Origin: Marinomonas sp. MED121
GTDB lineage: Bacteria; Pseudomonadota; Gammaproteobacteria; Pseudomonadales; Marinomonadaceae
Reading direction: 5' to 3'
DNA: 64,000 nt
Assembly: GCF_000153025.1 (NCBI RefSeq)
Contig: NZ_CH672429.1
Location: 3,822-67,821 of the forward strand
Of the stretch, positions 3,907 to 61,376 are shown in pieces; the first letter of the stretch is position 1; every line of letters starts with the position of its first letter. A program made the position numbers and the translations under genes. The notes beneath the pieces are model-generated. The model had not been told where the DNA came from, did not search any database, and saw only the letters and a list, made by a program, of their open reading frames with translations.

Positions 3907-6900
3907 ATGATAAGAATGCTAATTAACGCAACTCAACAAGAAGAGTTGCGCGTGGCCTTAGTTGATGGCCAACGTCTGTACGATCTTGATATTGAATCCG
4001 GTTCTCGCGAACAAACTAAAGCAAACATCTACAAAGGCCGTATCACTCGTATCGAGCCGAGCTTAGAAGCTGCTTTTGTTGATTACGGTGCTGACCGTCA
4101 CGGTTTCTTACCACTCAAAGAAATCTCAAAAACATACTTCTCTAAAAAACCGAATCATGGTGATGGTCGCATAAACATCAAAGATGTTTTATCAGAAGGC
4201 CAAGAAGTTGTCGTTCAGGTAGACAAAGAAGAACGTGGCAACAAAGGCGCAGCATTAACAACCTTTGTTAGTTTAGCAGGCCGCTACCTTGTTCTTATGC
4301 CTAACAACCCTCGTGCTGGCGGCATTTCTCGTCGCATTGACGGTGACGACAGAACCCAATTAAAAGAAGCAATGTCTGGCCTTAACATGCCTGACAATGG
4401 CGGCTTAATTGTTCGTACTGCAGGTGTTGGCAGAAGCACAGAAGAGCTACAATGGGATTTGGATTACCTCAATACTCTTTGGAACTCAATCACAGGCGCG
4501 GCTTCTGAAAAGCCAGCCCCTTTCCTAATCTACCAAGAAAGTAACATCGTCATTCGCGCCATTCGCGATTACTTACGTGAAGACATTGGTGAAGTGCTGA
4601 TTGATGAGAAGTCTGTTTATCAAGACGCTATGAACTTTGTAATGCAGGTAATGCCGCATTTCAAATCTCGCATCAAACAATATACAGATCAAACACCACT
4701 TTTTAATCGCTTCCAGATTGAAAGCCAAATTGAAACAGCCTTTCAGCGTGAAGTTCGCCTACCTTCAGGTGGCTCAATCGTTATCGATCCGACTGAAGCC
4801 CTTGTTTCTATAGACATTAACTCGGCTCGCGCAACAAAAGGTGGCGACATTGAAGAAACAGCACTTCAAACCAACCTTGAAGCAGCCGATGAAATAGCGC
4901 GCCAACTGCGTTTACGTGATATCGGTGGTTTAGTAGTCATTGACTTTATTGACATGACCCCGGTTCGCAACCAAAAAGAAGTTGAAAATCGCATGAAAGA
5001 TGCCCTAGAGGCAGACCGCGCTCGCGTTCAGCTTGGTCGTATTTCACGCTTTGGCCTTCTTGAAATGTCTCGCCAACGCTTACGTCCTTCTCTTGGCGAA
5101 ACCAGTGGCATTGTGTGCCCTCGCTGTACAGGCCAAGGCTTCATCCGTGACGTTGAATCACTTGCATTATCTGTCCTTCGCTTAATCGAAGAAGAGTGCG
5201 CGAAAGAAAGAACCGCTCAAATTCGTGCTGTCCTACCTGTTTCAGTTGCCACCTTCTTATTAAACGAGAAGCGCACAAACATTGCTAAAATTGAAAAGCG
5301 TAATCATGTTCACATTATCCTAGTGCCAAATCCACACATGGAAACACCGCACTTTGAAGTAGAACGTATTCGTGACGATAGCTCTTCAGTTGTACAAAAC
5401 GAAAACAGTTACACCTTGGTTGAAACACCTGAGCAACCTCCTTACGAGCCACGCCAGACAGACCAAGAAACACGCCAAAAGGCAGCGGTAACAAGCATCG
5501 CTCCAGCAGCACCTGCTCCTGCACCTTCTGACATTAAACCTGTTAGCAAAAAAGCACAGCCTGTTGGTTTCTTCAAACGTATTCTAAATGCCATTTTTGG
5601 TGTTGAAGAAAACAAAGAAGAGAAGCAAACCGAGAACAAACCTAGCACTAAGAAGACTAATCCTCGTAACAACAGAAACACGAAAAATCGCAACACCCGT
5701 GGCAACAACCGTAATGTGAAACAAGTTCATACGGAAGAAGTTGAAAGCAAGGACTCTCGCTCTACACGTAAGTCACGTCGCGAGCAAGCAGAGGCTAAAA
5801 CCAATAACCGTAAGCCTAGCCGCAACCAACAACAGGAAAACAAGAACAACAACGATGAGACGCAAAGCAAGCAACAGCGCCCTCAACGTAAAGAAAAAGT
5901 TATTCCTGAAGTGAAAGAACGCAAACGCGAACGCAACCAAAACAAACGTCGCAATGGCAAACTAAAAGATGAAGCAAACAAAGCGAACGAAGAAGCATTA
6001 GCCGCAAAAGCACAACAACAGGCCTCTGAAGAAGCCGCTGCAGCTGAAAAAGCCAATAAACCAACGCAAGAAAATGGCGAAGCCGTTCGTGAAAAACGCA
6101 ACCCTAGCCGTCGTACCCGTCGTGGCGGCCAGAACCGCAATCGTGACCAAGCCAAAGAAGAAGTGCAAACAACAGAAGCGACCGCCACTGCCGTAACAGA
6201 AGTTAAAGCAGAGCCTAGAGTGGAAGCTAAAGTTGAAACAGAAGCTAAAGTTGAAACGGTAGCAACACCAGAAACTGCTCCTGAAGTGACAGCTGAAGCA
6301 AAAACCGAAGCTTTACCAGATACTGCTCCTGAAGCTAAAGTTGAAGAAGCTGTTTCTGAAGTTAAAGTTGAAGCAACACCTGAAACTAAAGTTGAAGAAG
6401 CCGCTCCTGAAGTTAAAGTTGAAGAAGCCGCTCCTGAAGCTAAAGTTGAAGTTGAAGTTGAAGCAACACCTGAAGCTAAAGTTGAAGAAGCCGCTCCTGA
6501 AGTTAAAGTGGAAGAAGCTCCTGAAGCTAAAGTGGAAGAAGCTCCTGAAGCTAAAGTTGAAGCAGCACCTAAAGCTAAAGTTGAAGCAGCACCTAAAGCT
6601 AAAGTTGAAGCCGCTCCTGAAGCTAAAGTTGAAGAAGCCGCTCCTGAAGCTAAAGCTAAAGCTGAAGAAGCTGAAGCAGTCACAGAAAAAGCGACTCCTG
6701 AAGCTGTAGCAGTTACTGAAGCTGAAGTCGCTGAATCGACAGACACAACATCTGCTAAGAAACGTGCTCCAAGACGCGCTCGCGGTAAGCCAACAATTAA
6801 AGCCGAAGCACCAAAAGCGGCGGTTGAATTACCTCAAGCTGTGATCGACCAGCAAGAAAAACAGAAAGCTGAAAGAGCTAAGCGCAATGCAGAAGCCAAA

Positions 6901-20177: not shown

Positions 20178-21055
20178 TAAGCGATCACCTCAGCTTGCTT
20201 CATAGCGTCAATCACTTGATTATGAAATGTATTAGCAAACAAGGTTAACGGTAGGCGAATTCCCTCTTCACAAAGCCCTAGTTGCGCACATGCCCATTTT
20301 ACTGGAATCGGATTAGATTCTAAAAATAGATTTTTATGTAAGCCTAGCAAGCTTGCATCAACCGCTTTTGCCTCTGCAGCCTTTCCTTCAAGGGCTAACG
20401 CAGCTGCTTTTGAGGCTTTAGCCGGAGCCACATTTGCAGTCACAGAGATATTGCCTTTGGCTCCTAATAGAATCAGATCAATGGCAGTTGGATCATCTCC
20501 CGAATAAACAGCAAAGTCAGCGGGTGCGGCTTCAATTAAGGCCTTACCACGGGCAAGATCGCCTGTTGCATCTTTAATACCCACAATGTTTTTAATACTT
20601 GCAAGTCTTAAGCTTGTCTCATTAGACATATCACAGGCAGTACGACCAGGCACGTTATATAAAATCTGAGGGATATCTACAGCGTCAGCAATGGCTTTAA
20701 AGTGTTGATATAAACCTTCTTGAGTAGGCTTATTATAATAAGGTGTTACGAGCAAACAGGCATCTGCTCCAGCATCTTTTGCTCTTTTGGTAAGGTCAAT
20801 GGCTTCATGGGTTGAATTTGCACCCGTTCCAGCAATCACAGGCACTCTACCTGCAACACACTCAACCACTTGACGAATAACATTCGCATGCTCTTCATAA
20901 TCAAGTGTCGCAGACTCACCAGTTGTACCAACCGCTACAATGCCATGAGTACCCGCTTGCAAATGAAACTCTATAAGTTCTTGAAGTTTGACAGAATCTA
21001 CATCGCCATTATTTGTCATGGGTGTAATTAGAGCAACTAAGCTGCCAGTAATCAT
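20177..21055 (-). CDS. dapA: 4-hydroxy-tetrahydrodipicolinate synthase
   Basis: A 292-residue TIM barrel, the same length as E. coli DapA. The Schiff-base lysine is Lys161 in VGIKDATG, Tyr133 sits in ILYNVPGRTA, and Tyr107 in VTPYYNKPTQEGLY; GTTGES is the pyruvate-binding loop. It condenses pyruvate with aspartate semialdehyde, the committed step to diaminopimelate and lysine. It heads the dapA-bamC-purC transcript and is divergent from bcp across 180 bases. Confidence 0.96.
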   Translation of the reverse strand: MITGSLVALITPMTNNGDVDSVKLQELIEFHLQAGTHGIVAVGTTGESATLDYEEHANVIRQVVECVAGRVPVIAGTGANSTHEAIDLTKRAKDAGADACLLVTPYYNKPTQEGLYQHFKAIADAVDIPQILYNVPGRTACDMSNETSLRLASIKNIVGIKDATGDLARGKALIEAAPADFAVYSGDDPTAIDLILLGAKGNISVTANVAPAKASKAAALALEGKAAEAKAVDASLLGLHKNLFLESNPIPVKWACAQLGLCEEGIRLPLTLFANTFHNQVIDAMKQAEVIA

Positions 21056-25610: not shown

Positions 25611-25652
25611 GTCATTACCCCTAATTAAAAATCGGGATTAGATATAGGAAGT

Positions 25653-25728
25653 TGGTGGGTCGTACTGGATTCGAACCAGTGACCAATTGATTAAAAGTCA
25701 ACTGCTCTACCAACTGAGCTAACGACCC
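25653..25728 (-). tRNA. tRNA-Lys (UUU), copy 2
   Basis: A 76-nt cloverleaf with encoded CCA (the TGG at 25653-25655 read in reverse). The acceptor arm pairs GGGTCGT with ACGACCC, the D arm is GCTC/GAGC, and the anticodon stem GTTGA/TCAAT encloses CTTTTAA with anticodon TTT at 25693-25695. The T loop is TTCGAAT. It is identical in sequence to the other copy, 28 bases away, and the two are clearly cotranscribed. Confidence 0.98.
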
Positions 25729-25756
25729 AGACTACTTGAAGTAGATATAAGATTGT

Positions 25757-25832
25757 TGGTGGGTCGTACTGGATTCGAACCAGTGACCAATTGATTAAAA
25801 GTCAACTGCTCTACCAACTGAGCTAACGACCC
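25757..25832 (-). tRNA. tRNA-Lys (UUU), copy 1
   Basis: Same 76-nt sequence as the following copy, with anticodon TTT at positions 34-36 and encoded CCA. It is the promoter-proximal copy of the pair. The place between cpoB and nadA corresponds to the lysT-valT-lysW tRNA cluster of E. coli. Confidence 0.98.
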
Positions 25833-25843
25833 AACGGGCGCGT

Positions 25844-42951: not shown

Positions 42952-43683
42952 TTACCAATCACACTTTTCGCGAATGGGCTTCATGTTGCTTGCCAGGTTT
43001 AACGAGTCAAACCTTAAGCCATCGATAACAGGCGAGTTGGACCTTAGAACTAATGATCGAGCCGAAATAATCGCTTTCATTGCTCTGATAGCAGGAACAC
43101 CACGCCCTGTTCTTAACACCAAACCATCTTCATCACTGACCCAAGTTTGTGTATCATTTCTATCGCCAAAGATACTAATTTTCACTCTGGGATCTTGCAG
43201 CTTTTCAGGTAAAACAAGCTCAACTCGACTAATAGATTCCAGACAGCTCAACATCAAAATGGGTGTTTTAATTTTGTTATCTAGCTTTTCAACCTGCTCA
43301 AGATTCACCATGGCAGGCGAGGTCACCCACACGCTGTTAGCGACCTCAGGCGCTGTGCCATAGGTCAATTTAAAGCCCAAATCAGCCTCACGATCTATTT
43401 CTGATTGAATTGCTCTCGCTGTAATAGGCAAAGTGACAACGGCTTGTTTTTCGACATCTAACTTGGTACCAAACACCTCATCAAAACAACTTAGTCGGGT
43501 CAGCCTTGAAGCGACTAGACTGCATTCAATACCCGCAACACCGAGTTTTTGGACAAGTGATAAATCTTTCGTAGATGCTGGCACCTCTGCCTTAGAAGGA
43601 ACCCGCTCCTCGGCTTGGGCTTGAGTAAAAAGAACACTTGAAACAAATGCTAACAAAATAATATAAAGCGGTTTAACCATCAT
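42952..43683 (-). CDS. vasI: T6SS-associated periplasmic protein VasI (TagO)
   Basis: A 243-residue protein from ATG 43683, which overlaps the vasH stop by four bases (ATGA). It begins with a signal peptide ([23 protein letters not shown]). A cysteine pair near the start of the mature part ([18 protein letters not shown]) and [22 protein letters not shown] match the VasI/TagO family. Its function in secretion is not well defined; the signal peptide puts it in the periplasm. An in-frame extension to 43707 exists but would lie inside vasH and in front of the signal peptide. Confidence 0.87.
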
Positions 43684-45230
43684 GCATGAATCTCCAGTTT
43701 TAAGCATTTATGCGCTAAGGTACGTTTTGGTATGCCCAAACTTTCAGCGGCTTTTGCTCTGTCTCCGCCAAATTTAATGAGCCTGCTCCTGATAATCTCA
43801 ATCTCATAACCTGTTAACGCCCGCTTTAAATCACGAATACGTTCAAGGCTAGAATCACTGGAAATATCTTTATCAGCAACCATTGGCGCATCATCAAAAA
43901 CCAATAGATTTTGCACCCTATCTCTTACCACGCTTAAACTGATTTCTTCGTCATTACCGGTTTGGATACAAGCAAATTCCACTAGATGCCTTAGCTCTCG
44001 AACATTGCCAGGCAACTTACATTGGGTAAGTAAATCCAAGGCGGAAAAACTAATCCCTCTGACTGATGTGTGATGCTTTTCATTGAATTGACCAATAAAG
44101 GCAAGCACCAATTCGGCAATATCCGAACGCCTGTCAGCCAATGCTGGCAGCATAAGAGGGTATTGAAACAGGCGATAATATAAATCTTGTCTAAAAGCAC
44201 CAGATTGAACAGACTTCAGCAGATTTACATGAGTCGCAGCCACCAGCCTAAAATCAGATGACATCTCATCTTTGGCACCTAAAGCACGGTATTGACAGGT
44301 CTCCAGCACGCGCAATAATTTTGCCTGCAAAGACGGTGACATATCGCCAATTTCATCTAGGAATAAAGTGCCTCCATTTGCTTGAGCGACGAGACCTAAT
44401 TTTTTAGAATCAGCCCCCGAAAAAGCCCCTTTTTCATAACCAAAAAGTTCGCTCTCCAACAGATTTTCAGGAATCGCAGCACAGTTGATGGCAACAAAAG
44501 GCTTTTTACTACGCTCTGAATAATCATGCACCGCCCTTGCCACTAACTCTTTACCTGTTCCCGTTTCACCTTGAACCAAGACTGTCAGGGTTGATTGTGC
44601 CGCTGTGATGATCTGATGCCTCAGTTTTTGCATCTTTTCACTAGAACCAACCAACCTTGTTGCCAAAGAGATAGAGCTCTCTCTTTGCTCACCTTCTTTT
44701 TTCAGACGCGTTAATGAACCAACAAGATCCACTTTCTGAATCGCCTGTTTACCAATATCTTTAATCAAGCCTAATTGGTTCATAAAAATGGCACTGTATT
44801 GCTGCCACTCAGACAAATCTGAAAGGTTCATGACTTGATCCGCTGGCCCTACCATTAACACCATGGCTTTCACCTTGTCATTACCAGGTGGTAAGGGGTG
44901 AATCACAACCATTTCATCATTTTTAGGCATACCAACTAAGGCACTAAAGCCCGCATCAGAACGCCAATACAAGAGCTTTTTAAGGCTCATAACCATAGGG
45001 GTCGTCGCTTGTAAAACATGGGAAAAAGGGTTGTTAAAATCATTAACTTCCCAATTTATTGACTGCGGATGATCTATTACTTCCAACCGGCTGCCATCAT
45101 GCGAAGGCATGATGACACAGGCAAGGGACAAACCCATTTGTTCCTTTAAGGTGGAGGTATATTGATTAATTAAAGCAGTTTCATCGCGCAGCTCACCTTG
45201 CTCAACAGCTTTCCTTAGCCATAAATTCAT
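43680..45230 (-). CDS. vasH: Sigma-54-dependent transcriptional activator VasH
   Basis: From ATG 45230, 4 bases after clpV, it has 516 residues. An N-terminal GAF-like sensor (about 15-180) precedes the AAA+ domain with Walker A GETGTGKE, the sigma-54 contact loop GAFSGA, Walker [11 protein letters not shown] and the arginine-finger region RQDLYYRL. A Fis-type helix-turn-helix closes it ([21 protein letters not shown]). The loop is GAFTGA in most activators; here Ser replaces Thr. V. cholerae VasH activates hcp operons through sigma-54. The window holds -24/-12 sites in front of hcp and vgrG, its probable targets. The reading frame runs back to 45401 inside clpV, but those residues are not family-like. 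Confidence 0.93.
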
Positions 45231-45234
45231 GGAG

Positions 45235-47919
45235 CTATTCCACCTCTCCGATAAATTCGCCGTCGACCACCGACAAACGAATACGATTAACAGGCTCTCT
45301 GGCTGCAAGTCTATCCAGCAAAGCAAGAGAGATAGGTGGTAACATCTGACCTTCAATAATGGCCTCAAGCATACGCGCCCCATTTTCTGAGCGAGTTGCA
45401 CGGCGCATAATCTCGTGCACTAACTCATCTTCAATGATGACATCAGCCTGATAGCGCTCAACAAAAATAGACTCAAGCCCAGTAAGTTTGGCTCTGACTA
45501 TCTGCTCAATCACATCAGTTGCTAAAGGCAAATAAGGTACTACTTCCATACGCGCTAATAATGCGGGCTTAAAGAAGTCACATAATTCAGGATAAAGACG
45601 TTCTTCGATTTCTTGTGGCGCATCTGCATGATCAACAATGGTTTGATAACCCAGATTTGAGGTTAAGAAGAAAACCACGTTTTTACAGTCGATTACTCGC
45701 CCTTCCCCATCCGCTAACTCGCCTTTATCAAACGCCTGATAAAACAAGTTCAGCACTTCTGGATGCGCTTTTTCCACTTCATCAAGCAAGACAACAGAAT
45801 AAGGCATTTTGCGAATAGCCTCAGTTAACACACCTCCTTCACCGTAACCCACATAACCTGGAGGTGAGCCAATCAAGCGTGACACAGTGTGCTTCTCTTG
45901 AAACTCAGACATATTAATCGTGGTTAAAAACTGTTGGCCACCATATAGCTGATCAGCAAGTTGCACCACGGTTTCGGTTTTACCCACACCACTTGGTCCC
46001 ACCAACAAGAAAGCCCCTTTTGGTCTTCCAGAGCGGCGCAAATCAGCGCGAGCCGTCAATAGGTTTCTATGTACGCGGGCAATGGCAATGTCCTGACCTT
46101 TAATCGCTTTACCAAGAATCTCAGGAAGATGCGTAATTTTACTCAACTCATCTGTGTTCATTTGATTCACTGGCACACCTGTCCAGTCTGCGATTACTTG
46201 AGCGATTTGATCGGCGTCCACCTCTGGGTAAATCAACTTCTGCTCATGGGGGATAGCATCATATTCTTGGTAAAGATCTTCAAGTTTATCAAGTGCAACA
46301 ACCGCATTTTCATCCGTTTGCTCTTCAATCAACTCAGCAGCGATATCTAAGGCATTTGATTCAGCATCATCATTGTCATCTGACTCAAGCTGCTCCTCAA
46401 ACTCTGCTTCTGGCGCTAAAATACGTTGTCTTGCCACGACAATCCTTTCAACTAAAGCCCTTTGATCAAGCCATTGTTGATGAAGATTTTCATACTCAGC
46501 TTGATCTTCTTCTTCATTCGCCAACAAAAGCGCTAAACGGGCTTGATCAATCTCGCGACCCAATTTTAATTGACGATTTAGCATATCAATCTCAAGCTTT
46601 CTTTGAAGACTTTGGCTATCTAAAGCCGCTAAACGTCTTGGTGGCGCAGACAAGTTAATTGCAATACGCGCACAGGCGGTATCTAGCACATCAATGCTTT
46701 TATCAGGTAGTTGACGACCCGACACATAACGAGCTGATAATTCGGCCGACGCTTTTAGTGCAGCATCGGTAATCAAAACCCCATGGGCTTTTTCATAGAC
46801 ACCATGAAGACCACGCATAATATCGCAGGCTTGATCGACACTCGGCTCTTCTAATTTCACCAATTGAAAACGGCGAGTGAGAGCAGGGTCTTTTTCAAAG
46901 TATTTTTTGTATTCTTTCCAAGTTGTAGCAGCCACAGTACATAATTCACCACGAGCAAGTGCAGGCTTAAGTAAGTTAGCAGCATCCCCACCCCCCTCTT
47001 GGTTGCCGGCACCAATTAAGGTATGCGCTTCATCAATAAAGAGAATAATCGGTGTCGGTGAATCTTTGACTTCATCAATAATAGATTTAAGACGCTTCTC
47101 AAATTCTCCCTTTACTGAGGCACCCGCCTGTAATAGGCCTAAATCCAATGACAAAAGCGATACATCTTTTAATGTATCAGGCACCTTACCTTCAACGATT
47201 CGAAGAGCCAAACCTTCAACCACCGCACTTTTACCCACACCTGCGTCACCCACAACAATGGGGTTATTTTTACGACGACGGCAAAGAATATCTATCATCA
47301 GATTGATTTCTTCATCACGACAAAGCACAGGGTCGAGTTGGCCATTACGGGCACGCTCTGTAAAGTCAGAACAGAACTTAGCCAAAGAACTTGCATCCGT
47401 GTTTAAGGCTAGTTTTTTACCTTTTCCAGCATGGTCGTTTTGCACGGTTTCAGCAGAGCCTTGCAAAATCTGACTAAAGTTTTTACGCACTGTTTCACGG
47501 TTAATTGACTGAAATATTTCAATCAAAGAGAAAGGTAAGTATCTGTCTGGGCGCATAATGGCCGCCAAGAAAATAGCACCTGAACGAAGCTCTGTTTCAT
47601 TTAGTTCAGTCGACGACAGCAACCAAGCATCTTGTAACAATTCCACCAACAAAGGAGAAAACGCTGGATAGGTTGCATTACCGACTTCGGTGGTTATCGC
47701 ATCACCGGTTTTATGCTTTACCAACACATGGTCTAAGTTAGCGCTTTTCAACATCACCCTAATATCAGAGAAAGGGTTTTCTAAAATCGCAAACAGCAAG
47801 TGTTCAAACGTCACTTCAGGGTTTTGACGACTAATACAGGCAGACGCAGCCTGCTCCATCACAAGTTTCGTTTGGCTATTTAATTTACTAATTAGGTTGG
47901 ATAATTCAATCTGAATCAC
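45235..47919 (-). CDS. clpV: T6SS sheath-recycling AAA+ ATPase ClpV (TssH)
   Basis: An 894-residue double AAA+ unfoldase. It has an N-terminal Clp-N domain (about 10-150, which binds TssC), a first Walker [12 protein letters not shown] (about 223-233) with [12 protein letters not shown], and a middle coiled-coil region (about 410-540). The second Walker A is [11 protein letters not shown], followed by the [26 protein letters not shown] block. It disassembles the contracted TssBC sheath. A short acidic insert (DDNDDAE) lies in the middle domain. Gap to tssL is 12 bases. Confidence 0.96.
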
Positions 47920-57874: not shown

Positions 57875-58393
57875 TTATGCTTCTACAGGCGCTCTCCAGT
57901 CATCAGAACCAGATGTTCCTGCAACTGTGTGTTCCCAATCAACTTTACGGTATGCTAAAGATACTTCGACTAGCTGAGTGAACTCAGACTTAGCAGTGTC
58001 TTGGCAATGAGGCATTTTACAATCAATATTAACAATGGTTGCATCCGTTAATTTTGTTGAGAAGAAATGCTCTTGCTTACCTTCAACTGACGTGCGGTAC
58101 CACTTCAATTCAACAGTAGGAAGCGCTTCACCAGATGCCAATGCGTTATACATTAGAGGTACTGATTTGTTTAGTGCTACTGTAAATTTGAAAGGCTTAT
58201 GTACACGTTGACCAGCTGGTTGACCAGACTGAGGGTCTGTAGGAACAGTTACGATGTGATCGAACTGCTGAACTAGCATCTCATCTTCGTGACCTTCTAC
58301 ATAAATATTACCGACAGAATCTGCAGTGAATGAACCTGCTGTGATGTTACCTTGTGTGTTACCTTCAATCGCAATGTAGCATGGAGTTGGCAT
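57875..58393 (-). CDS. hcp: T6SS tube protein Hcp (TssD)
   Basis: A 172-residue protein strikingly similar to V. cholerae Hcp as I remember it: MPTPCYIAIEGNTQG, EGHEDEMLVQQFDH, TVPTDPQSGQPAGQRVHKPF, VELKWYRTS and GTSGSDDWR. Hcp hexamers stack into the inner tube expelled by sheath contraction and also carry effectors. It is a single-gene transcript: sigma-54 promoter about 75 bases upstream, terminator downstream. Confidence 0.97.
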   Translation of the reverse strand: MPTPCYIAIEGNTQGNITAGSFTADSVGNIYVEGHEDEMLVQQFDHIVTVPTDPQSGQPAGQRVHKPFKFTVALNKSVPLMYNALASGEALPTVELKWYRTSVEGKQEHFFSTKLTDATIVNIDCKMPHCQDTAKSEFTQLVEVSLAYRKVDWEHTVAGTSGSDDWRAPVEA

Positions 58394-58466
58394 AATATAA
58401 TCCTTATAAATGTGAACCGCAGTTCCTTAAAAAATGACGTCTTACTCATGTAGACACCCCTATAAA

Positions 58467-58481
58467 GCAACCCACATGCCA
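58467..58481 (-). promoter_or_regulatory. Sigma-54 (-24/-12) promoter of hcp
   Basis: The minus strand reads TGGCATGTGGGTTGC: GG and GC exactly 10 bases apart, against the consensus TGGCACG-N4-TTGC (one mismatch). Transcription should start near 58455, giving an hcp leader of about 60 nt. The activator is probably VasH. Confidence 0.85.
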
Positions 58482-58600
58482 AAAAATAAAAACAAACAAA
58501 ACATATTTATAAGCCATTGATTTTAAATGATTATATTTTTTATTTTTTTAAATTTTTAAATTTCTCTACACTCTTTTTAACTTTTATTAAGCAACTAATT

Positions 58601-58615
58601 GCTTGGCCCACAAGC
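58601..58615. promoter_or_regulatory. Candidate upstream activator site for hcp
   Basis: GCTTG-GCCCA-CAAGC is a 5+5 bp inverted repeat about 150 bases upstream of the predicted hcp start, the usual distance for a sigma-54 enhancer site. The word AAGCCATTG, which overlaps its right arm, occurs again at 58511-58519. No VasH consensus is available to me, so this is tentative. Confidence 0.3.
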
Positions 58616-58704
58616 CATTGTTTGCTTAAGAGTAATATCTTGCTTCTAATCCAAAGACAAACACACGAGATGAGAGGCTCTCTTTAATATTTTATAGCTG
58701 ACGG

Positions 58705-58847
58705 AATGCTGAAATGCTGAAATGCTGAAATGCTGAAATGCTGAAATGCTGAAATGCTGAAATGCTGAAATGCTGAAATGCTGAAATGCTGAAATGCTGA
58801 AATGCTGAAATGCTGAAATGCTGAAATGCTGAAATGCTGAAATGCTG
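58705..58847. repeat. Octanucleotide tandem repeat (AAATGCTG)x17
   Basis: Seventeen perfect consecutive copies of AAATGCTG occupy 58712-58847, preceded by one imperfect copy (58705-58711). There are no interruptions. The complementary unit is CAGCATTT. The array lies between the PAAR gene and the hcp promoter, outside any credible gene. It is a simple-sequence repeat, not CRISPR (no spacers). Confidence 0.97.
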
Positions 58848-58852
58848 AAAAT

Positions 58853-58879
58853 TTGACCTCTCTTAGTATAAGAGGTCAA
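58853..58879 (-). terminator. Hairpin after the PAAR gene, likely terminator of vgrG-PAAR
   Basis: TTGACCTCT pairs with AGAGGTCAA around a 9-nt loop, and ATTTT follows on the minus strand. It starts 22 bases after the PAAR stop codon and abuts the octanucleotide array. Confidence 0.55.
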
Positions 58880-58901: not shown

Positions 58902-59186
58902 TCAACCTACATTCACCGTGCCGCCACCTGTTAACGCGCCACCACACCCCACCGGATCACCACTTCTTGCCACAGGTTTGCCATCTGCAAATACACTTCC
59001 AGATCCCCCTGCAATAGCACGCCCATGGGGTGGATGCTTAGGCTTTGAATGTTGCTCAAGTGGGTCTCCTAACCTTGCAATCGCAGCACCATCTGCTTTC
59101 ACCGTACCTGACCCTGCTGTAATTGCTGTGGGTGGAAAACCATCATGATCCAAACCCTGATCCCCAACCTTTGCGGCATTACCCAT
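58902..59186 (-). CDS. T6SS PAAR-domain spike tip protein
   Basis: A 94-residue stand-alone PAAR protein: three repeats of the beta-cone pattern (ITAGSGTVKADGAAIARLGDP, IAGGSGSVFADGKPVARSGDP, LTGGGTVNVG), with His and Cys residues for the tip metal. PAAR sharpens the VgrG spike and may carry effectors; this one has no extension, so it is structural or recruits a separate effector. It is 28 bases after vgrG. Confidence 0.92.
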   Translation of the reverse strand: MGNAAKVGDQGLDHDGFPPTAITAGSGTVKADGAAIARLGDPLEQHSKPKHPPHGRAIAGGSGSVFADGKPVARSGDPVGCGGALTGGGTVNVG

Positions 59187-59214: not shown

Positions 59215-61059
59215 CTAATTAAGATTAATGGCAGCGCCAGAAACATGCACCCCAGCCGCATCCACTTTAACAAAGCTTCCTCCCGCAGACAGGGTGATTT
59301 CATTACCGGCATCAATGACGACATTTGAAGCCCCGGTTAATGCGATATCAAGACCCGCATCCAGCAATAAGGCCTTGGCTTGCTTACGCTGCAAGTTTGC
59401 AGCAACATCACTCTCCTTATTACCTTTAACTTTCACTCTTTGCTCCGCTTCCACTTTGAGGTGATGATTGGCATTTACCGTTTGACTGCGATTATTTTCA
59501 ATCGCCAAATGCACATCATGATCGACCGTATCAATACGATCATTCAAAACGGTCAAATTTAAATCCTTTTGCGCAATAACAGAAATCAGCTCTTGCTCAG
59601 CTTGATCTTCAAATGCAATTTCATTATATCCCTCACCTTGATGACTCTGGGTACGCAAGACCGTTTTGCTCATATGTTCAGGCAGTGCATAAGGCGGTAA
59701 ACTCATCGCATTAAAAGCGCGCCCTGTAATAATAGGCTGATCAGGATCACCCTCAAGATATTCAACAACAACCTCATGACCAATGCGCGGCATACTCACA
59801 ACACCGTACATGGACCCAGCCCAAAGACTTGAAACTCTGACCCAACAACTAGCAAGGTCATCACCATTAGCATACCTATCCCAAGGAAATTGTACTTTAA
59901 CTCGCCCAAACTCATCACAGTAAATCTCTTCACCTTCAGGCCCAACCACAATTGCAATTTGGGCACCGTCAATTCTGGGTTTACCATTAATATCAGCCCG
60001 CCAGCTCATCTCACTAGGAATAACTTCCACCTTATTTCGGTAATAAGTCAGACCTTCTCCCCCCATTTCTTCCAATGCTTGGGGCTGCTCGCCTTTATGG
60101 ACAACGCGAGTCAGTAACCAATCTTGATTACAATCATCATCAGGATGGCGCTCAAGTAGCATTTTTGCGCCAGCAGTAAGACTTGCAATATTAGATTGAG
60201 CCAAGGCAATTGCTGAGTGCTTTCGTAAAGATTGAAGTCGATACAAGGTAAAAGCTTTGCCTGATTCATCTTCTTTGAAGCGTCCAGGTGCATCAAAAAA
60301 CTCATAATAATGACTTAAGGCATCGGTATTAGCCGTTTGTAAAAAAGAATAATCTGGCTGTTTGAAGCTGTAATCCTTTAAGGTCACATTAGATGGCGCA
60401 ATCTGATCTAAACGTTTAAAGGCTTGAACAAAAGGTGCCCCTTTTCCACCTGCCGCATTGGCATTATAAGCGCAGGTTTCACTGATATTAGGTAAAGCCT
60501 GATTATTATCACTAAATATTAAGGTGTGTTTTTCTGCCACATGACTAAAGAAGAAAAACAAGCCTTCTTCGGCGGCAATTCGCTGAATAAAATCTAAGTC
60601 AGTTTCACGGTACTGGGCACAAAACTCACGCGGCTCACACTCTCTAAGCATTGAAAAAGCATAATCATCAATCCCCATTTCTTGGAGCAGAATTGAAATA
60701 ATCTCAGGCACAGTTTGCAGCTGGAAAATCCGGCTGTTTTGACGCAAACCAGAGCGACTTAAAGAAGGCACCATGATAAGCTGATAAAAAGTATGATGAT
60801 GACCTGTATCCCCTTGAGAGAACTGCTTAACAACCCCATGCCAGGTTTGCTGCTCTTCACCATCATTGAATACAGATAAACTGACACCCTTATCTAAAAT
60901 ATCCAACGGGCTATGATTTTCCACTCGGCTAGCTAGTTCCACCACAAACTCAAAAGGTTGAGAAAGTGATTCCACACCTTCAAACCCTCTAACCACAAAG
61001 GTATTTTCATCCATTCCTTCAATTTGAAGTGTAAAACGCAGTCCAGATTGCAATTCCAT
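59215..61059 (-). CDS. vgrG: T6SS spike protein VgrG (TssI)
   Basis: A 614-residue protein with gp27-like N-terminal domains ([18 protein letters not shown]...[40 protein letters not shown]-type block), the gp5 OB fold ([22 protein letters not shown]...[41 protein letters not shown]), and a C-terminal beta-needle ending [21 protein letters not shown]. There is no domain after the needle, so it is not an evolved VgrG. It starts a short vgrG-PAAR transcript with its own sigma-54 promoter. Confidence 0.96.
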   Translation of the reverse strand: [614 protein letters not shown]

Positions 61060-61376
61060 CTAACTAATCCATTCTAGTGATAACAATTTTTTTGCTAGTT
61101 GATCCCAAAGCAATTTCTTAGCCAATTATATAAAACGCTGTTCTCACTCAATTTTTTATAATGAACAAGGCATACAGAGCAAGATATTGCCCAGCGCGAG
61201 CCAGTTATTACCCAAAGTTAACAAAAACTCATCACCTAAAGATAAGCACAATTATTTCTACTTATTGGGGTTGGGGCTGTATGAATTTTTTTGATGTATT
61301 TTGTGAGCCGACAGCGTAAAGTTGCGCACTCGGTTTATATCTAATGACCTAAGTTATCAGCTAAAAAAGGATTTTT
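61060..61376. other. Divergent intergenic region between vgrG and the lipid cluster
   Basis: 317 bases without a gene. The vgrG sigma-54 promoter is at 61110-61124. On the other side AAGGA precedes the CDP-alcohol phosphotransferase start at 61377. I see no clear sigma-70 promoter for the latter and no other structure. Confidence 0.6.
61110..61124 (-). promoter_or_regulatory. Sigma-54 (-24/-12) promoter of vgrG
   Basis: The minus strand reads TGGCTAAGAAATTGC: GG and GC exactly 10 bases apart, with TGGC and TTGC both perfect. The predicted transcription start near 61098 leaves a leader of about 40 nt to the vgrG ATG. It shares architecture with the hcp promoter. Confidence 0.75.

Follow-up and report, generated by a model that had tools for sequence, protein, structure and literature searches.

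The perfect octanucleotide array located between the PAAR protein gene and hcp in the T6SS locus of Marinomonas sp. MED121 is best explained, with reasonable though not high confidence, as a slippage-grown microsatellite that occupies the spacer separating the PAAR gene from the control region of hcp and whose length alleles would mostly affect hcp little or not at all. The array was analysed within a 64,000-nucleotide stretch of contig NZ_CH672429.1, hereafter the window. Seventeen exact AAATGCTG units lie head-to-tail at 58712-58847, recovered as 15 overlapping exact 24-mers in a whole-genome pattern search, an organization that is that of a simple sequence repeat or VNTR, in which short near-identical units follow one another. 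Tandem Repeats Finder returned a period of 8, 18.2 copies, 100% matches and 0 indels over 58705-58850, so that both methods confirmed the seventeen perfect 8-bp copies reported in the first-pass annotation. The start at 58705 given in that annotation includes a 7-base partial copy (AATGCTG, 58705-58711), and the other edge carries AAA at 58848-58850. The array as a whole (58705-58850) is assigned to neither strand; read along the flanking genes, the unit is CAGCATTT. The whole-genome pattern search revealed no second site for the three-copy pattern in the 5.15-Mb assembly (97% complete), which consists of 13 contigs and in which the copy number of a perfect array of 146 bp may be inexact.

The array is far from chance and unusual against the sampled genus background. 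Perfect arrays with a unit of 4-12 and at least five copies were represented in 1.664 Mb from seven Marinomonas genomes only by the window array and by an array of the same octamer in a second genome (G023), both of which had been put into the sample on purpose. Folding with DNA parameters gave a minimum free energy of 0 on both strands and the array beat none of 200 shuffles; secondary structure of the array was consequently rejected, neither strand forming a single stable fold. Other repeats in the window include long imperfect repeats at 6325-6662, within the C-terminal portion of an ORF resembling RNase E by eye, and two tandem 104-bp copies at 25639-25833 (TRF, 96% match) that look by eye like a duplicated tRNA gene.

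On the minus strand, the order of features is vgrG (59215-61059; PF05954, PF04717), the PAAR protein gene (58902-59186; PF05488), a hairpin followed by ATTTT, the array, two dyads, a -24/-12 element and hcp (57875-58393; PF05638). The PAAR gene is the last gene upstream of the array, which sits past the PAAR stop codon and upstream of the hcp promoter; genes beyond hcp resemble further T6SS components by eye. The terminator-like hairpin that follows the PAAR gene (58853-58879, minus strand) is comprised of TTGACCTCT, a 9-base loop and AGAGGTCAA, after which ATTTT leads into the first repeat unit. Its z value was -3.51, with 1 of 200 shuffles folding equally well (DNA parameters). The hairpin was not returned by a consensus terminator scan because the loop limit of the scan is 8 and the loop is 9. 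A sigma-54 activator gene is located in the cluster on the minus strand (43680-45401, the longest ORF, with an uncertain start codon; PF00158), which we take to be VasH-like, and its product is the candidate binder of the dyads. The gene context and the sigma-54 promoter of hcp proposed from the first inspection were therefore upheld, as were the placement of the array between a PAAR-side hairpin (58853-58879) and an enhancer-like region (58588-58628) and its character as a perfect repeat of a slippage-prone type.

The -24/-12 element of hcp (58466-58481, minus strand) has the sequence TGGCATGTGGGTTGCT, an exact match to TGGCAN6TTGCT, as expected of a sigma-54-dependent promoter. Upstream are a proximal enhancer-like dyad (58588-58605, minus strand; CAAGCAATTAGTTGCTTA) and a distal one (58611-58628, minus strand; TAAGCAAACAATGGCTTG), with one and two mismatches, respectively, to TAAGCAAN4TTGCTTA. 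An exact match to the IHF consensus (AATCAATGGCTTA, 58510-58522, minus strand) lies between the dyads and the promoter. Counted from the hcp ATG, the start of the array is at position -312, with the dyads at -235 and -212, the IHF match at -129 and the -24/-12 element at -88. A spacing of ~77 bp separates the upstream array from the distal dyad, and the distance from the array edge to the -24 element (58478-58481), annotated as about 230 bp, was ~225 bp when measured.

In order to compare control regions, 14 hcp promoters were collected: that of the window, that of Marinomonas sp. SBI8L, and those of 12 loci from six other Marinomonas genomes, several of which share one genome and are not independent. 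The 12 loci derive from a search that found 16 hcp places, of which L009 is the window itself, L016 and L017 were left out with an Hcp only 28% identical, and L024 was left out as a 26-residue fragment at a contig end. TGGCAN6TTGCT, with at most one mismatch, preceded hcp in 14 of 14 at -74 to -88 from the ATG. The dyad TAAGCAAN4TTGCTTA, with at most three mismatches, was present in the last 300 bp of 11 of the 14, whereas mononucleotide shuffles of the same stretches averaged 0.33 promoters and never exceeded 3; the promoters missing it were L013, L018 and L019. Exact IHF matches were found in two of the 14 stretches, located between dyads and promoter only in the window, and no IHF consensus match was detected in the SBI8L hcp stretch. 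Across the entire window neither pattern was enriched (dyad, at most three mismatches, 8 found against 7.86 expected; sigma-54, at most one mismatch, 11 found against 7.86 expected), and support for both therefore comes from position and recurrence. One other exact TGGCAN6TTGCT match is present in the window, at 21032-21047. A sigma-70-like site at 58559-58530 (minus strand), between the dyads and the -24 element, and a terminator-like site at 58601-58615 (plus strand), over the dyads, were set aside since neither class was commoner than in shuffles. A sigma-54-like site with one mismatch (TGGCTAAGAAATTGCT, 61109-61124) lies just upstream of vgrG. The sequence suggests that vgrG-PAAR and hcp may be driven separately by sigma-54.

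It had been proposed that gain or loss of 8-bp units changes the geometry of the enhancer loop and makes T6SS firing phase-variable. Such a switch requires an activator bound in or beyond the array, and is unsupported since the best candidate enhancer, the mapped double dyad, sits on the promoter side; with both dyads and the sigma-54 promoter on the hcp side of the array, the loop between the mapped enhancer and the promoter would be unaffected by repeat number. The recurring dyads on the promoter side of the array led us to abandon loop geometry as the leading reading, and the same architecture is found without the array in SBI8L. The second proposal, that CAGCATTT is itself a multimerised activator site, was likewise rejected: the best match of the octamer to a dyad half-site was 5 of 7, a level attained or surpassed by ~26% of composition-weighted octamers and hence no better than chance. 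Phase-variable loci carry the repeat in a reading frame or between or within promoter elements, a placement not found here, the array being outside the hcp and PAAR frames and farther upstream than either dyad or the -24/-12 element. An effect by way of a distal site beyond the array or a protein that binds the repeats is possible.

A contingency locus, in which array length tunes hcp output to yield cells differing in T6SS activity, would operate through such a repeat-binding protein adjoining the enhancer or through local DNA mechanics. The closeness of the array to the distal dyad of an important T6SS promoter is in its favor, as are the precedents of hmwA octanucleotides (PMC3309571), hmw1A 7-bp repeats (PMC8262952) and nadA operator spacing (PMC2791445), although in the sections available of these papers the repeats sit in the promoter region or between operators. 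The placement of the dyads between array and promoter, their retention in SBI8L without the array, the half-site match at chance level and the lack of a perfect array in all 13 other hcp loci examined argue against it, and we consider a contingency locus unlikely. If array length did control hcp, the result would be an SSR-driven T6SS switch. Among the matches listed in literature searches combining T6SS with phase variation, tandem repeats or simple sequence repeats, and to the extent that their text was available, no SSR-controlled hcp appeared. The mapped architecture makes an SSR-driven T6SS switch unlikely.

The closest named record by PAAR protein is that of Marinomonas sp. SBI8L (94% identity), where the order is PAAR, dyads, promoter and hcp and where the spacer between PAAR and hcp has no tandem array. 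Aligned with the window, SBI8L shows a gap at the array and keeps both dyads, the -24/-12 element and the 5' leader. The gap also spans the hairpin and ~20 bases past the array, and the adjacent spacer is poorly conserved; given the wide gap, the poorly conserved spacer and only two sequences, gain of the array in the window and its loss in SBI8L are both possible. Perfect arrays with a unit of 5-12, at least three copies and at least 20 bases were found in 0 of 13 other hcp loci examined. Different arrays were observed in two other records. In an uncultured Shewanella (L040, 3291-3356), ACTTGGTTT is repeated 7.3 times from a few bases past the stop codon of a PAAR gene, with a large ORF, Rhs-like by eye, lying downstream. 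In Vibrio sp. MEBiC08052 (L026, 1287-1379), (CACGAC) is repeated 15.5 times in an ORF resembling a cation transporter by eye, where it encodes a His-Asp repeat.

For the microsatellite, it is envisaged that replication slippage would have grown the octamer in the PAAR-hcp spacer, ahead of the hcp control region, and that units would be gained and lost by the same process, as judged from the perfection of the repeat in one genome. Loops of 8 bases generally escape mismatch repair. The 17 perfect copies with one edge partial suggest an array that is either young or constantly homogenised. Most length alleles would be expected to leave hcp little changed or unchanged, since the spacing of the mapped dyads and promoter, the hcp frame and the PAAR frame are all constant whatever the repeat number; the array is probably near-neutral for hcp. 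An alternative is that transcription from vgrG-PAAR reads through into the array, which then functions as RNA or as a short reading frame. Although CAGCATTT, taken on the strand that the flanking genes use, is stop-free in all frames and a 77-aa ORF extends from a TTG over 58646-58879, the hairpin and T-run stand directly before the array, the array is without a single stable fold (DNA parameters) and the ORF terminates 59 bases past the array, results which render a transcribed function very improbable. A finding that is awkward for a purely accidental origin of the microsatellite is the identical octamer at an unrelated locus of a second Marinomonas species.

A 24-base pattern with at most one mismatch was found in 2 of 48 Marinomonas genomes, that of the window (G000) and G023. 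The G023 array has 11 copies of AAATGCTG (L066, 1499-1591; L113, 10614-10706) and is located downstream of tRNA-Asp, between the tRNA and a gene encoding an 865-residue methyltransferase-kinase (APH)-cupin protein, ~90 bp before the ATG. The array edge is ~10 bp from the -35-like TTACAA of that gene, which is separated by 16 bp from TACACT. No Hcp match was obtained in G023, indicating that the octamer is not tied to T6SS. At the orthologous locus of G003 (54% identity) the tRNA is present and the array absent, and the -35/-10 promoter stretch looks conserved by eye. In both genomes CAGCATTT has the same orientation as the flanking genes and begins right after a hairpin and T-run; the G023 hairpins had a z of -3.26, with 1 of 200 shuffles equal. 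The flanks of the two arrays showed no similarity beyond chance, a result on which a mobile element carrying the array was rejected, and the four-copy pattern was absent from the viral contigs searched.

The exact three-copy pattern was found outside the genus in 0 of 372 genomes of the order and in 0 of 364 further genomes of the class (736 sampled). The order sample comprised 390 genomes, of which 18 were Marinomonas, and the class sample 369, of which 5 had been searched previously; G000 was the only match within both samples. Of 47 Marinomonas genomes, 45 lacked even the 16-base pattern of two copies. With zero other arrays taken as the observation, the 95% upper bound on array density is 1.8 per Mb, and the chance expectation for the other 47 genomes, at 4 Mb each, is at most ~0.1 arrays of the octamer class. 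The octamer in two species hints at a shared cause, and the recurrence is suggestive and unproven because the chance expectation may be as high as ~0.1 arrays.

One such cause would be an element of the genus, recurrent or copied, that arises at or is transferred to intergenic sites after terminator-like hairpins in the direction of transcription. The same octamer in 11 copies at the tRNA-Asp locus, the matching orientation directly after a hairpin and T-run in each case (z -3.5 and -3.3), the failure to find the pattern in the 736 sampled genomes of other genera and the rarity of other long perfect arrays in the genus sample are consistent with this explanation. Set against these are flanks with no similarity beyond chance, a distribution of only 2 of 48 genus genomes with the two-copy pattern lacking in most, the compatibility of coincidence with an expectation of up to ~0.1 arrays, and an RVT_1 reverse transcriptase in 0 of 2 genomes; overall a genus element seems quite unlikely. 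Templating by a reverse transcriptase or telomerase-like enzyme was rejected, PF00078 being found in neither G000 nor G023 versus 3 of 14 controls in a search that covered the PF00078 (RVT_1) model only. Outside the array, the 12-base rotation TTTCAGCATTTC was found in two places in G000, both of which look coding by eye, and in none in G023, this being the rotation searched. There is a slim chance that a sequence-specific process that generates or spreads repeats plants or regenerates long perfect arrays of a genus-specific octamer (AAATGCTG) immediately after terminator-like hairpins at unrelated loci. Such a process would create variable tracts adjacent to promoters, in the window next to the enhancer region of the T6SS hcp gene and in G023 next to the -35-like element of the methyltransferase-kinase-cupin gene. 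The recurrence asks whether long microsatellites in repeat-poor genomes are random or seeded by terminator-like hairpins, and recurrence across species beside hairpins is a more open point than control of hcp.

The window resembles the RpoN/Sfa2-controlled H2-T6SS of Pseudomonas aeruginosa, as described in the portion available of PMC8855297, in having a sigma-54 element before hcp and an activator gene in the cluster, and differs from RpoN-controlled hcp promoters in the array, which is an extra in the window and is found at none of the 13 further hcp loci examined. No activator binding motif for comparison with the dyads was found in that portion. The hmwA promoter regions of Haemophilus carry octanucleotide repeats, including GCATCATC in H. 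influenzae biogroup aegyptius (PMC3309571), and hmw1A shows graded expression in which more 7-bp units lower expression (PMC8262952), according to the parts available. According to the same sources, ~12 to 24 heptamer or octamer units are arrayed ahead of hmw1A and hmw2A, an upstream position shared with the window, whereas the Haemophilus array is in the promoter region and the window array is upstream of the mapped dyads of the sigma-54 promoter. In Neisseria meningitidis, NadR operators flank the nadA repeat tract and tract length sets operator spacing, as stated in the available text of PMC2791445. The tract likewise precedes a promoter, within a stretch that may form a loop, but the NadR operators are on both sides of it while the window dyads are both on one side of the array. 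On the content available from these papers, hmwA, hmw1A and nadA are the nearest parallels found, with the repeat located inside the control region in those systems and outside the mapped region in Marinomonas sp. MED121.
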